From NCBI GenBank assembly GCA_937139605.1, contig CAKZQG010000005.1, positions 1 through 62,463 on the forward strand: a DNA stretch of 62,463 nt, given 5' to 3'. Numbering within the stretch: the first letter of the stretch is position 1; each line of letters opens with the position of its first letter. Both the position numbers and the translations under genes were made by a program. The notes under the pieces are model-generated. The model was not told the DNA's origin, did no database searches, and saw only the letters and a program-made list of their open reading frames with translations. This document shows, piece after piece, positions 12,441 through 46,738 of this stretch. This stretch comes from an uncultured bacterium (lineage in GTDB: Bacteria; DRYD01).

Positions 12441-12680
12441 TTCCAAAATTATCTTATACTTTTCCTCTTTTTAATATAATAATTCATATTGGAAATTAAT
12501 CAAATTTTTATTGTTTTTATCAAACTCTATACCTATTAGATATATCTTTTGATAATTTAAATATTTTTTATATTTACATACAACTTCGGAAATACTTTCC
12601 TCGTTGTAGTATTCTTTTTCTTTTATCTGTTTTAATGCTTTCCCTTTTCCCTCTTCTTTCTCCAGCATCTTAAACTCCAT

Positions 12681-12701
12681 TATAACGAAAGTTATATGAA
12701 A
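12681..12701. repeat. 21-bp in-frame shortened hairpin element, site E, copy 1
   Basis: The inner hairpin is gone, leaving TATAACGAAAGTTATATGAAA. It adds seven residues (FHITFVI) immediately before the catalytic MEFK of the nuclease domain. It is present at the same place in copy 2. Confidence 0.8.
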
Positions 12702-13106
12702 TATATATACTAATTTGTTATTCACTATTATTGTTAAATCTATCCGGCCTTTAGACGTATTATCTTCTATTACTACATTATATCCTGTTGAATATACTAT
12801 TCCATATATTGCTGCAGAATAAACATACTCATTTTTCAGCACTTCATAACTTATTGAATTTATAAACACTTCTATTTGTTTTCTTATTTCTTCCAGATTT
12901 TCTTTTATTAATGCTAATTCTAAGGGTTTTGTTATATATTGTTTATAATCTCTCGTTATATAAAACAATAATTCATTGTTAAATGCTTCTCTTACTTCTC
13001 TATTTGGATAATCTAACGTATATACTTCCCTTGATCCTACTTTTTCTATCTCATTTATTGTTAAATACCCCGTTTGAAACATCAATGCTTCTATGCATAT
13101 ATATTC

Positions 13107-13139
13107 TATAACGAGAGATGTATTCTCGAAGTTATATGA
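13107..13139. repeat. 33-bp in-frame hairpin element, site F, copy 1
   Basis: The same outer arms TATAAC/GTTATA with inner arms GAGA/TCTC. At 33 bases it is in frame and adds SYNFENTSLVI to the protein. It is present at the same place in copy 2. Confidence 0.8.
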
Positions 13140-13342
13140 TAATATGTCAAACTTCTCTAATATCTCTTCTGTATAATATCTCTTATACAAATAAGGTAAA
13201 TCAAAGTTCCTTTGTTTTATTATTTTAAATAAGAACTCTGTTCTTCCCGTTTCGTACCAATAATTCCTTATCTCCTTTTTATCTAAATATAACAACACAT
13301 CAAACGGATTATACACTTTATTAGCTAAAAAATTATATCCGT

Positions 13343-13376
13343 TATAACGAACGCAGTATGCGTGAGTTATATGAAA
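13343..13376. repeat. 34-bp hairpin element, site D, copy 1
   Basis: Second tandem unit. Inner arms ACGC/GCGT. Removing both units (68 bases) joins GAGTGG to TATAACGGATAT and restores the conserved EWYNGYNF line of the family. Confidence 0.85.
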
Positions 13377-13410
13377 TATAACGAACACAGTATGTGTGAG
13401 TTATATGAAA
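13377..13410. repeat. 34-bp hairpin element, site C, copy 1
   Basis: First of two tandem units in reading order. Inner arms ACAC/GTGT with loop AGTAT. It abuts the next unit without a gap, and each junction carries TATA. Confidence 0.85.
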
Positions 13411-25442: not shown

Positions 25443-26429
25443 ATGATGAATTTCAATTATTCTAATTTTTCATTTAATTTTACAAATACTAGTTTTAATT
25501 TTAGTAGTATAAGTATTTCTAATTTTCCAAATATAACAAACAACTACCCAATTGATAATTATAATCCATTAAATAATCCATTAACAGCTGGATTAGTAGG
25601 GGGATTATTAGGAGGAGTAGTAGGTGGGTTATTAGCTTCAGCTCTTCCTTTAATGAATAATTTTTCATCTCCACTAAATACCCCTTTTAGCTTCCCGTTT
25701 AACAATAATTTCAATAATTTCAATAATTTAAATTCTATAAATTCAACCAATCCTATGCTATTATTAACTTTATTAATGCTATTATTAATGTTAATCCAAA
25801 ATAAAGCTAATATGAATTCTATAGGTGGATTTCCTAATATGGGTGGATTTCCCGGTATGGGTGGATTTCCTAGTATAGGTGGATTTCCTAATATGGGTGG
25901 GGTTCCTAATATAGGTGGATTTCCTAATATGGGTAGATTTCCTGGTATGGGTGGATTTCCTAATGCAGGTGGATTTCCTAATATAGGAGGTTCATCTAAT
26001 ACAGGTTTTAGGAATTTCATTCCTCAAAATCAAATAGATAGAATAATATTACAAGCAGCACAAAGATACAATTTAGATCCTGCTTTAATAAAAGCAGTAA
26101 TAAAACAGGAAAGTGGATTTAATGCTAATGCTAGATCTCATGCAGGTGCAATGGGATTAATGCAATTAATGCCAGGTACCGCTAGATCCTTAGGAGTAGA
26201 TAACCCATTTGATCCTGTTCAAAACGTAATGGGAGGAGCAAAGTATTTAAGACAGATGTTAGATATGTTTGGAGGTAGAGTAGAATTAGCATTAACAGCA
26301 TATAATGCAGGCCCTGGAAACGTGAAAAGATACGGAGGAATCCCACCATTTGCTGAAACTCAAAACTATGTTAGAAAAGTAATGACATACTATCAACAAT
26401 ACAAATCAGAAATGAGATATATTGCATAA
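25443..26429 (+). CDS. Lytic transglycosylase (SLT) with Gly-Phe-Pro hexapeptide repeats
   Basis: The C-terminal domain (about 195-320) is a family 1 SLT lytic transglycosylase that cleaves peptidoglycan: [14 protein letters not shown] with catalytic Glu223, [18 protein letters not shown], and [15 protein letters not shown]. The first 190 residues are unusual. There is no standard signal peptide but an Asn/Phe/Ser-rich stretch, a Gly-zipper hydrophobic segment (48-70), a Leu-rich hydrophobic segment (105-118), and ten units of the type GGFPNM (128-187). How it reaches the wall is unclear. The ribosome site is AAAGGGGGTT before two Met codons. Confidence 0.85.
25824..26003 (+). repeat. 18-bp tandem coding repeat (ten GGFPNM-type units)
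   Basis: Ten tandem 18-base units code for [54 protein letters not shown] and GGSSNT. Unit number can probably change by slippage. They form the linker before the transglycosylase domain. Confidence 0.9.
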
Positions 26430-42071: not shown

Positions 42072-42428
42072 ATTATTCTAATTTTTTATTTAATATAATT
42101 TTCCTTCAAAAATAAACATTTTTTTATATCTTAAATACTTCAGTATTATTTATTACATTGTTATTCATTAAGCGGGAATTTAACTCCCTACAATTAACTT
42201 GAAATTTCATTTAAATTACTTATATCTATCTTCGATATCACTAAATTATTACTACTATTTTATCTTTTCATATTCAAAATCAACTACATCTTTCTTTACC
42301 TTATCAAACTCTATCCCCACTAAATATATCTTCTCATAATTCAAATACTTCTTATGATACTCCTTTTCTTTTATCTGCTTTAACGCACTCCCTTTTTCTC
42401 TTTCATTCTCTATTACCTTAAACTCCAT

Positions 42429-42449
42429 TATAACGAAAGTTATATGAAA
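42429..42449. repeat. 21-bp in-frame shortened hairpin element, site E, copy 2
   Basis: Encodes FHITFVI just before the catalytic MEFK of the nuclease domain, identical to copy 1. Confidence 0.8.
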
Positions 42450-42857
42450 TATATACACCAGCCTTTTATCTACCACTACCGTTAAATCTATTCTCCCTTT
42501 TGACGTATTGTCTTCTATTATCACATTTAACCCTGTTGCATATACTAATCCATATATTGCTGCTGCATATACATATTCGTTTTTTAACACCTCATAACTT
42601 ATTGTACTTATAAACACCTCTATTTGCTTTTTTATCTCTTGTAGATCTTCTCTTTTAAATGCTATATTTATTAATGTTGTTTTATCTATTTGGTAATCTC
42701 CTGTTATATAAAATAATATCTCACTATTAAATGATTTTCTTACCTCTTTATTCGGATAATCTAATGAATATAATACTTCCTCATTTTCATACTTATACTC
42801 CTCTTTTATTGTTAAATATCCAGTTTGAAACATTAATGCTTCTATGCTTATATATTC

Positions 42858-42890
42858 TATAACGAGAGATGTATTCTCGAAGTTATATGA
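42858..42890. repeat. 33-bp in-frame hairpin element, site F, copy 2
   Basis: Inner arms GAGA/TCTC. It encodes SYNFENTSLVI in frame, as in copy 1. Confidence 0.8.
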
Positions 42891-43093
42891 TAATATGTCA
42901 AACTTCTCTAATATTTCACTTGTATAATATTTCTTATGTAAATAAGGTAAATCAAAGTTCCTTTGTTTTATTATTTTAAATAAAAATTCTGTTCTTCCTG
43001 TTTCGTACCAATAATTCCTTATCTCCTTCTTCTTTAAATATAACAACACATCAAATGGATTATATACTTTATTAGCTAAAAAATTATATCCGT

Positions 43094-43127
43094 TATAACG
43101 AACGCAGTATGCGTGAGTTATATGAAA
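43094..43127. repeat. 34-bp hairpin element, site D, copy 2
   Basis: Inner arms ACGC/GCGT. Second tandem unit; excision of both restores EWYNGYNF. Confidence 0.85.
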
Positions 43128-43161
43128 TATAACGAACACAGTATGTGTGAGTTATATGAAA
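43128..43161. repeat. 34-bp hairpin element, site C, copy 2
   Basis: Inner arms ACAC/GTGT. First of two tandem units, as in copy 1. Confidence 0.85.
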
Positions 43162-43847
43162 TATACCACTCTCTTACTTCTTCTATATTTACATTATCCA
43201 AATACTCTTTAAAATAATATTCTAATTCTTCTTGGGTATATCCGCATATATCTCCATATTCCCTGCTTAATGAGATATCTTCTAATTGATTTAATCCACT
43301 AAAAAGAGATACTTTTGCAAATTTTGAAACCCCCGTTACTATCACAAACTTTATATACTCATCCAGCCCTTTTAACACTGAATAAAAACTCTTTAATGTT
43401 TTTCTTACCTCTTCTGCTTCTTTTCTTTCTTCTATTACATCTAATATCGGCTTGTCATATTCATCTATTAACACCACCACTTGATTATTATATCTTTCAC
43501 TTATTTCTATTATTAAATTCTGTAACATTAATCCTAACATGATTCTCTTCTTTTTCTTTTTCTTTTTCTATTTTCATTTTCTTATAATTTAACCTTACTT
43601 CATTCCTTATTACTTCATATATTTCACTTAGTGTTTTTATATCTACTGCAAAGTTTATTCTTATTACTGGATATTTTTCACTCCAATTCCACTTGTCTTC
43701 TATATACAATCCTTTAAATAATTCTCTTTTCCCTTCATATAAATACTCTATTGTTGATAATAATAATGATTTCCCAAAGCGTCTTGGTCTGCTTAAAAAT
43801 ATATATCCTCCACTATTCACTAATTCATATATATACTTTGTCTTATC

Positions 43848-44097: not shown

Positions 44098-44631
44098 TCA
44101 GTAGTATTTTACAATAGAAATGTAATAAGCTAATTTTTTTACCATTGTATATTGGCCATTTTTAATATATCTACCTTTTGAAGCTCTATTATATACATAA
44201 ATTTTAATCTCATATAATACAGGCATATAATTATAATAAGTATTAGCAACCCAATAAATGTAATTTGATATTTTTTTAACTTTTGTTTTTGAAGGATATA
44301 GTGGGTTTGTTTCTATTTTAAATTCCTTAGGAGGATTCTTTTTTAAAGTAAAAGTATAATCATAAGTTTCTATTATAGTACTATCTGGGTTATTTCTAAT
44401 ATAAACATACCTTGATAAAGCCATAGCTTTCTCTATTTTTATACCTATTTCCTTTGCAGTTAATGTGTCATTTGTTAAATAATCCTGTTCTCTTTTTATT
44501 TTGTTATAAATCAAAAAAATTTGAACTAATATCCCTATCATTAGGGAGATAATAGCTAAGGAAACCATTACCTCCACCAAACTTAAACCCCTATTACCCC
44601 TAAAATTATACACCATCAAACTATTCTCCAT
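44098..44631 (-). CDS. Minor pilin/pseudopilin with prepilin N-terminus
   Basis: 177 residues. The class III signal NRGLSLVEVMVSLAIISLMI has Gly before the cut and Glu at mature position +5, then a long hydrophobic helix, as in type IV pilins and type II secretion pseudopilins. The globular part is small with basic Tyr-rich strands and no Cys pair. It is cleaved by a prepilin peptidase, not in the window. It follows the pilin-Hint gene by 41 bases in the same direction, probably one operon. Confidence 0.85.
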   Translation of the reverse strand: MENSLMVYNFRGNRGLSLVEVMVSLAIISLMIGILVQIFLIYNKIKREQDYLTNDTLTAKEIGIKIEKAMALSRYVYIRNNPDSTIIETYDYTFTLKKNPPKEFKIETNPLYPSKTKVKKISNYIYWVANTYYNYMPVLYEIKIYVYNRASKGRYIKNGQYTMVKKLAYYISIVKYY

Positions 44632-44672: not shown

Positions 44673-45929
44673 TTATTTTCCTCCCGGCACAGGTTCTCCC
44701 CCTCCTCCCTTACAATCTGCCCATGCTACTGCCACAATAAAAGACAAGCTAGAAAATGCTATAACATCAATTAAATTTAGTTTCCTATATCCTGAATGAG
44801 CTAATATAAATGATTTACCATCTACTGATACTAAAAATGTATTTACATTACTTTTTAATTCTAATGTCATTACTTTATCAATTATTTTTTCTTTTCTTAT
44901 TTGTTTTATTTCTTGCCAGCTATAATCCCCATCTTGATAAACCAATACCTTATCTCCAATATTTAATTTTTCTGCTTTTTTAATATTATTATTTTTATCG
45001 ATAACTAAAGGATGATTTGGAGTTAATCTCAATTTAGAATTTTCCGTTATTATCTCTAATATCTCATATTCTTTTTTATCATGCATATGTATTTTCTCTA
45101 TTTCTATTTCTTTTAATTTATAATTTTCTACTGGATCTATTGTTATAATTATATCTCCTATTTTTACATCCCCCATCCTTTTTAGTTTATAATTATCATA
45201 TTCTTTTGCTAAAATTAGTGTTGATAGTTCAAAACACTTCTTGTCTTGATCCTCTTTCTTGTCAGGACCATCATCCTTGTCAGGACCTCCATCTTTGGCA
45301 AGACTTCCACCGCCACTACCGCCTATTGTATCAATCGTAATCTCAGTATAATTAGGTAAAAAGCTTGTAGTCTCTTTCTCAACAAAAACAGGGAGAAAAG
45401 TTTCTACCTTGTTTTCATTATCTTTACCTTTTATTTTATAATTTATAGTTAATTTTATATAGAATTTATATAGCATTTGGTTTTGCTTTTGGAGATAAAC
45501 ATTAGTTAAAGCATTTTGGACTTCACTACTACTTTCTATAGGATTAGCATATATACTTGTAATTACGATATTTTCTAAATCGTTATCTTTATTAAGTTTA
45601 GAAATTAAATAATTTGCATAATCATTTAATTTTGATGCTAATTCACTTAAAGTAGATACTTTTAAATATAGTTCTCGTTTATTTTCAATGTACAGGTTAA
45701 AATATGTTTGAGTTTTTTTAGCAATTAAGTCGTTATACATTACTTTATTATGCATTTTAATTATGCTATAATAAACAGAAGCTAATGCAAGGATACATAA
45801 AGTAACTATAGCAATAAATGCTACTACCTCTAACAAGCTAAACCCAATATTATTTAATTTATTCCTTAATTTGTCATTTTTTTTAAGATTTATTTTATTA
45901 TTTTTTATTTTTTTTATGTTTTTATTCAT
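44673..45929 (-). CDS. Pilin-Hint fusion: prepilin N-terminus plus C-terminal hedgehog/intein-type domain
   Basis: 418 residues. After a long basic leader (1-29), IGFSLLEVVAFIAIVTLCIL gives the prepilin cleavage site with Glu34 at +5 of the mature protein. A pilin-like ectodomain reaches about residue 200. A Gly/Asp/Lys linker (203-231) then leads to a Hint domain: Cys232 (KKCFELSTLIL), MGDVKIGDIIITI, LRLTPNHPLVI with the TxxH at 303-306, AEKLNIGDKVLV, and NTFLVSVDGKSFILAHSG ending at His378. There is no Asn before the last Ser, so thioester formation and N-terminal cleavage are plausible while splicing is not. A last hydrophobic segment (386-404) and GGGGEPVPGGK tail follow. Confidence 0.85.
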   Translation of the reverse strand: MNKNIKKIKNNKINLKKNDKLRNKLNNIGFSLLEVVAFIAIVTLCILALASVYYSIIKMHNKVMYNDLIAKKTQTYFNLYIENKRELYLKVSTLSELASKLNDYANYLISKLNKDNDLENIVITSIYANPIESSSEVQNALTNVYLQKQNQMLYKFYIKLTINYKIKGKDNENKVETFLPVFVEKETTSFLPNYTEITIDTIGGSGGGSLAKDGGPDKDDGPDKKEDQDKKCFELSTLILAKEYDNYKLKRMGDVKIGDIIITIDPVENYKLKEIEIEKIHMHDKKEYEILEIITENSKLRLTPNHPLVIDKNNNIKKAEKLNIGDKVLVYQDGDYSWQEIKQIRKEKIIDKVMTLELKSNVNTFLVSVDGKSFILAHSGYRKLNLIDVIAFSSLSFIVAVAWADCKGGGGEPVPGGK

Positions 45930-45941
45930 AACCCCACCACC

Positions 45942-46576
45942 CTATATTTCTTCCACGGATATTTTTACATTAAATGGAGGCTGATCACCATAATCACCAC
46001 TACCAGTTATTCGATATTTTATTTTTAATCTAATTGGATATTCCAATTCATTGAATACAACCGTATCCTTAATCTTATTTTTTATTTTTATTTTAAGTTT
46101 AGAATAATAATACACTACCAGATTTCCAGATTCATAAGTAAAGGTTCTAACTCTATCAGTAAAATCCACACCATATATACTAAACCTACTTTGGAGATTA
46201 TTTTTTACATTATCCTCAATTGTATTTTCTGTATCTAGAAAAAGTATCTTTTTTACATCTTCTATAGTTAATCCCGGCGGATCAGAAAATCGCTTAGTTC
46301 CATCAGGTAAATAGGGTTTATAATGTAATCCCCATTTCCAATTTTCAAAAAGGAAACCATAATTCATTAATTTAACCATATACAAATTAGTATTAACTTC
46401 TCTAAATGAGTTATAAAAATTAGAGTAATTCTTTTTTCTTCCATTGCTAATTTAAATATTCTACTGTTATAAGAATAAATAATCCCAATAATAGCAGAAG
46501 TAAAGAATAAAACAAAAAGAGCCAATAACAAAACTGTTCCTTTGTTTTTATGGAAAAAATTGCTATTTTTATACAC
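45942..46576 (-). pseudogene. PilX-like minor pilin gene with an A-tract frameshift
   Basis: From GTG 46576, preceded by a run of six G, the first frame encodes a PilX-like N-terminus (HKNKGTVLLLALFVLFFTSA, IIGIIYSYNSRIFKLAMEEK). It then runs out of frame at a tract of six A near 46435-46440. One extra A would continue as KNYSNFYNSFREVNTNLYMV into the frame 45942-46385 (WGLHYKPYLPDG...VKISVEEI). So one gene has a single-base shift. It could be real decay, sequencing error, phase variation, or programmed slippage on AAA. It ends 13 bases before the pilin-Hint gene. Confidence 0.65.
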
Positions 46577-46738
46577 TTTTATCCCCCCTAAAAAATAAAA
46601 ATTAAAATACTTTCCCATTTATATATTTATCAAAAAAAAAAAATCCTAAAAAATCATAAAAAAATTAACAAAAAATTTACAAAGCTATATAAAATAAAAA
46701 ATAATTTATTATAAAAACCTAAGAAAATTTTAGAAAAT

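Follow-up and report, generated by a model that had tools for sequence, protein, structure and literature searches.

What role might an autoprocessing Hint domain play at the C-terminus of a bacterial pilin? This question is raised by a gene in the window, which is the whole 62,463-nucleotide stretch of DNA that was analyzed. The initial annotation had placed a prepilin signal and a Hint domain in one reading frame at positions 44673 to 45929, and a single ORF encoding 418 amino acids is indeed present there; it lies on the minus strand, which the annotation left unstated. All of the landmarks that had been named were found in the sequence (NNIGFSLLEVV, Cys232, LTPNHPL, NTFLV, and His378-Ser379), and the Gly/Asp/Lys linker between pilin and Hint was confirmed as a low-complexity stretch preceding Cys232. 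What had been overlooked were a hydrophobic segment near the C-terminus and the existence of further copies, one in this genome and others in relatives. The coordinates of all features are collected in Table 1.

Table 1 Features of the pilin-Hint gene and of the adjoining minor-pilin genes in the window (aa, residues of the 418-aa protein).
Feature	Positions	Strand	Basis
Pilin-Hint fusion gene, 418 aa	44673..45929	minus	ORF, Pfam, AF2 model, structure alignment
Leader peptide of basic character, aa 1-29, with Gly29 at its end; prepilin peptidase predicted to cut between G29 and F30	45843..45929	minus	sequence
N-terminal hydrophobic helix of the mature pilin, aa 30-53, Glu at +5 (E34)	45771..45842	minus	sequence, Pfam, AF2 helix 32-72
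Gly/Asp/Lys low-complexity linker, approximately aa 198-231	45237..45338	minus	sequence, pLDDT <50
Hint domain, aa 232-381	44787..45236	minus	Pfam, AF2, structure alignment, DNA identity to second copy
Cys232 codon, predicted thioester nucleophile; exact 5' edge of shared DNA stretch	45234..45236	minus
His281-x-His283, invariant, near the Hedgehog general-base position D303	45081..45089	minus	hhalign and manual alignment
Block B TxxH (T303-P-N-H306)	45012..45023	minus	sequence, family alignment
His378-Ser379-Gly380; Ser379 at the terminal-Asn place of inteins	44790..44798	minus	family and structure alignments
Tail at the C-terminus, aa 382-418, with a predicted membrane anchor (hydrophobic segment, aa 386-404, positions 44718-44774)	44676..44786	minus
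Neighboring minor pilin, 177 aa, next gene downstream, same orientation	44098..44631	minus	N_methyl 27.7 bits, cut-off 21.2
PilX-like minor-pilin gene upstream, two ORFs via frameshift at a poly-A run	45942..46618	minus

The sequence of the window protein carries a class III signal, consisting of a leader that ends in Gly29 and a hydrophobic stretch with Phe30 and Glu34 (Glu5). The Pfam N_methyl match falls below the cut-off in this copy, and the Hint family PF01079 aligns to residues 230 to 348 with an E-value of 7.7e-7 and 29.3 bits, just under the cut-off of 29.7; Intein_splicing is also matched (2e-4). In a congener, a single ORF (L017) is matched by both N_methyl (21.4 bits, cut-off 21.2) and PF01079 (36.2 bits, cut-off 29.7). 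The pilin-Hint match exceeds chance.

An AlphaFold2 model of the window protein was built with five sequences. Residues 231 to 380 adopt the all-beta horseshoe of the Hint fold with pLDDT values of approximately 78 to 94, and thus the fold on which the initial annotation had staked its assignment is predicted with confidence. By using VIA-align, the Hint model was superimposed on Hedgehog with Z scores of 19.9 (6tyy) and 19.7 (1at0) and rmsd values of 1.7 to 1.8 over 137 residues, on the Clostridium thermocellum BIL 2lwy with a Z score of 19.1, and on inteins with Z scores of up to 20.2. The top Foldseek match is 2lwy. In the alignments to many inteins, the last model residue to be aligned is 379, opposite the last residue of the intein (e.g., 440 of Mtu RecA), and so Ser379 occupies the place of the terminal Asn. 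The globular domain of the pilin, when modeled alone, is predicted to form a long helix and antiparallel strands; at a mean pLDDT of 72, this model gave no Foldseek match to solved pilins in the PDB.

Six copies of the fusion were aligned, leaving out a decayed seventh. Cys232, Thr303, and His306, which correspond to Cys1 and the TxxH motif, are invariant among them, and both histidines of the HxH motif (His281 and His283) are constant. The residue before the Cys is Lys in the window copy and Gly in the other five, which carry a Gly-Cys-Phe junction. The Asn needed for splicing, which the initial annotation had reported missing, is replaced by Ser or Cys in 6/6 copies. Since Cys1 and TxxH are kept in all of them and the splicing Asn is absent, N-terminal thioester chemistry is a sensible prediction, by which the Hint domain would cleave itself at Cys232 via an N-S acyl shift. 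Asn-dependent splicing was ruled out because every copy lacks the Asn. Ligation of a C-extein to the N-extein likewise seems unlikely, given this absence and a downstream sequence of just 37 to 39 hydrophobic-tail residues. The short tail, together with weak PT-HINT scores, also ruled out delivery of a toxin in the manner of pretoxin HINT proteins.

A search for other pilin-Hint fusions, which had been proposed at the outset, identified a second one in the window genome. This protein (L002, 415 aa) differs in its pilin part and has TTTTAPTTTT as its linker, and its Hint domain is 79% identical to that of the window protein over 150 residues. Relatives in Candidatus Calescibacteriota provided four more copies and one decayed copy. 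The congener carries one fusion (L004/L017), genome G002 carries two that are intact (L011/L018 and L014/L019), and genome G003 carries one (L006/L020) in which an indel in the linker repeat puts pilin and Hint in separate frames (L020:1-1148), which may reflect a genuine off state or an error in sequencing. In the decayed G002 copy (L005/L021), the pilin ORF is open and ends within the linker, four codons short of Cys-Phe-Glu; the Hint behind it is frameshifted and partly deleted. A prepilin-like ORF precedes the Hint in all seven copies of the window's family.

The fusion-bearing relatives belong to this same family, as judged by kinship in the genome set. Named records comprise Candidatus Calescibacterium and unplaced or otherwise labeled MAGs, at least one of them from Tibet, and all related sequences come from metagenome-assembled genomes. 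The source group is one of little-known hot-spring bacteria. Genomes G004 through G006, which are incomplete, yielded no Hint. Among the loci inspected for the PT-HINT, Hint, and Hint_2 families in 386 genomes, there was no pilin fusion outside the window's family; when 84,980 species genomes were scanned for motifs with the family's own profile, matches came only from this family, and viral contigs and plasmid sets contained no pilin-Hint fusion, although absence from these genome, plasmid, and viral samples does not amount to proof of absence.

The DNA of the window gene is 85% identical to L002 and 82% identical to L004, and this similarity is confined to the Hint stretch. In both comparisons the shared DNA begins exactly at the TGT codon of Cys232 and ends just past HSGY; between the window gene and L002, identity is 28% in the 60 bases before the stretch and 38% in the 60 bases after it. 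The pilin parts of these two proteins share 24% of residues, whereas those of the orthologous L002 and L004 share 73%. Because DNA identity reaches 85% from the Cys codon onward between pilin parts that are only 24% identical, we conclude that the Hint has come to be joined to two distinct pilins. The Hint sequences of the window gene and L002 are closer to each other than to any other copy in 91% of the bootstraps for dN and 72% of those for dS, and therefore grafting or conversion within the lineage is likely, though not certain. The Hint domain is under purifying selection, with omega values of approximately 0.21 on the window branch (a wide bootstrap range of 0.08-0.74) and 0.22 to 0.24 on other branches.

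Behind the Hint, each of the six copies ends in a tail of 37 to 39 residues that includes a 19-residue segment with a mean Kyte-Doolittle value of 1.87 to 2.09, and the tail pairs compared share just 35 to 38% of residues. Four Hint-less paralogous pilins (L003, L007, L015, and L016) from the same operon types have no hydrophobic segment at their ends, which are linker-like and mostly Gly/Ser-rich. The tail therefore goes with the Hint, and because a membrane-type segment accompanies the domain and is absent without it, release from a membrane tether is our first reading of the architecture. Given their linker-like ends, the Hint-less pilins resemble the predicted cleaved product. Note that the tail might be buried rather than span the membrane as a helix. 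A MYXO-CTERM-like sorting tag was considered and dropped; the tail is preceded by Cys-Gly in two copies and by Ser-Gly in four.

The pilin-Hint gene sits in a minor-pilin context. The frameshift in the PilX-like gene may mark a pseudogene, an assembly error, or slippage. The matching pilin cluster of the congener is a deletion remnant (L012:1522-1920), wherein the N-terminus of a pilin runs into the end of the pilin gene that follows. Because of this remnant and the frameshifted PilX-like gene, the window cluster may be decaying. The second fusion is embedded in an arrangement that is syntenic across two species (L002/L017), comprising nfi, two minor pilins, pilin-Hint, and PLD, and the PLD-like (PLDc_2) gene follows pilin-Hint in both species of the genus (L002:70-1266 and L017:5698-7002). 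The window genome also encodes a prepilin peptidase (PF01478) and several T2SSE ATPases. Elsewhere in the window, two similar genes with near-identical starts (12471-13388 and 42255-43820) look as if they belong to a repeated mobile or decaying gene family; Pfam PDDEXK_9 is matched by the latter, whose upstream portion is fragmented into short ORFs. Long low-complexity repeat proteins of the FPNNFG/GGFGGFGG type are encoded at 25443-26429 of the window, L017:8531-9529, and L059:9030-10229, and two of the three are joined to apparent peptidoglycan-enzyme domains.

Until assembly, pilins are anchored in the membrane through alpha1-N, and they have to leave it to assemble (PMC7248040, PMC10128026). 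The reading that we prefer, and to which we assign an even chance of being right, is that the window protein is a modular minor pilin whose predicted self-cut at Cys232 frees the pilin from a membrane anchor. Upon insertion of the prepilin, the leader would lie in the cytoplasm and the rest of the protein outside, and prepilin peptidase would cut at G29. The Hint domain would then be periplasmic, held to the membrane by the hydrophobic tail. With the aid of T303 and H306, Cys232 would attack the preceding carbonyl in an N-S acyl shift, and water or a small or envelope-borne nucleophile would resolve the thioester. The pilin and its flexible linker would thereby be severed from the Hint and tail and become free for extraction into the filament. 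A second anchor beside the pilin helix would hold the subunit in the membrane, and self-cleavage would remove this obstacle. We infer the topology, the cleavage, the nature of the nucleophile, and the gating of assembly by cleavage. This reading is supported by the Hint fold, the retained Cys1 and TxxH residues, the conserved tails, and the low omega values. It also draws support from the decayed copy, which keeps a pilin ORF ending just before the Cys, from the placement of 7/7 Hint copies behind prepilin-like ORFs, and from the presence of prepilin peptidase and T2SSE ATPases. Counted against it are the Lys before Cys232, the possible decay of the cluster, the wide omega range, the potential burial of the tail, and the lack of a PDB match for the pilin globular fold.

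The thioester might instead be resolved as in Hedgehog, where cholesterol is the nucleophile and D303 serves as the base (PMC9163320). A nucleophile of the envelope or membrane (a lipid hydroxyl, an amine, the wall, or a partner protein) would attack at Cys232 and leave the pilin C-terminus covalently attached, with the tail acting as the SRR that holds the Hint at the membrane and His281 or His283 as the general base. The best Pfam match of both the window copy and L017 is to the Hedgehog Hint family, PF01079, and the Gly-Cys-Phe junction in five of the six copies is the Hedgehog cleavage motif. The invariant HxH falls at or within two residues of D303 (H281 by manual alignment, H283 by hhalign), and exchanging D303 for His leaves Hedgehog active (PMC9163320). 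The Hedgehog SRR is membrane-associated and directly follows the Hint (PMC7906309), but the pilin-Hint proteins lack an SRR. Furthermore, neither squalene-hopene cyclase nor phosphatidylserine decarboxylase was matched in the window genome, which is 88.5% complete, and at least one ordinary PT-HINT protein (L034) likewise has a His in the HxH region. On account of these last two observations, we take hydrolysis as the default and transfer as the alternative, which we regard as conceivable but unlikely. A bacterial ligation of this kind, in which the HxH base directs the pilin C-terminus onto an envelope nucleophile to give a C-terminally conjugated pilus tip subunit, is a slightly more doubtful proposition.

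The abrupt limits of the DNA shared by two unrelated pilins, at the Cys codon and just past HSGY, are also what might be seen if the Hint were a cassette of minor or no importance to the pilus, which spreads among pilin genes, cleaves itself from its host, and is tolerated because the pilin left behind functions normally. The decayed G002 copy with its retained pilin ORF and the absence of Hint from the incomplete genomes G004 through G006 fit this idea. However, the domain is under purifying selection and brings a conserved hydrophobic tail, the syntenic copy is retained in two species, no homing endonuclease is present, and the hosts are only pilins, which together make a cassette improbable. 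Modular pilins that display domains are common (PMC8179133), and a dead or structural Hint could be displayed by the pilus in the manner of lectin or vWA domains. The catalytic Cys and TxxH are nevertheless invariant in 6/6 copies and a membrane-type tail is unsuited to a displayed domain, and so we consider an uncleaved Hint very improbable.

Modular pilins with grafted C-terminal domains are a described class; one survey lists 264 architectures and annotates one module as a peptidase (PMC8179133). As described there, PilB and PilC of Streptococcus sanguinis share with the window protein a class III signal, a pilin module, a non-pilus domain behind a linker, and a minor-pilin position. The graft on the window protein differs in being an autoprocessing Hint with a membrane-type tail, which would be removed and not displayed. 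The Hedgehog Hog domain (1at0, 6tyy) has in common the fold, Gly-Cys-Phe (5/6 copies), TxxH, the lack of a C-terminal Asn, and a hydrophobic or membrane-interacting segment after the Hint. In contrast to Hedgehog, the pilin-Hint proteins are bacterial, reside on a pilin, and have the 37- to 39-residue tail in place of an SRR, His for D303 with no conserved Asp there, no C400, and no known lipid substrate. Type B BIL domains (defined in PMC4031507 and PMC5874633) are similarly bacterial and reside in host proteins that are not conserved; they have no block G ending of the intein type (terminal His-Asn) and would be expected to cleave without splicing. Unlike them, the pilin-Hint domains carry a conserved membrane-type tail and are always on pilins, as one family in two genera. 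Class 1 inteins share the fold, Cys1, and the block B TxxH, but the pilin-Hint proteins have no terminal Asn, real C-extein, or endonuclease. The initial annotation knew of no characterized pilin with a Hint, and none appeared in the literature searched; the set of 264 architectures may still contain one.

Pilins are matured at the N-terminus by prepilin peptidase. The pilin-Hint fusion joins two known things and predicts a new maturation step. If the prediction is true, this would be a second, self-executed step in pilin maturation, or a way to put a chemical group on the pilus tip. The architecture suggests that the pilin has to cut itself loose from the membrane before use, which would be a step not previously described for pili. 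Two unrelated pilins with the same Hint stretch also offer a convenient example of how domains are grafted. The processing domain of Hedgehog would, in addition, gain a membrane-tethered bacterial relative, one that resides in thermophiles, is likely heat-stable, and would be useful both as a ligation tool and in tracing the origin of Hedgehog-type transfer.
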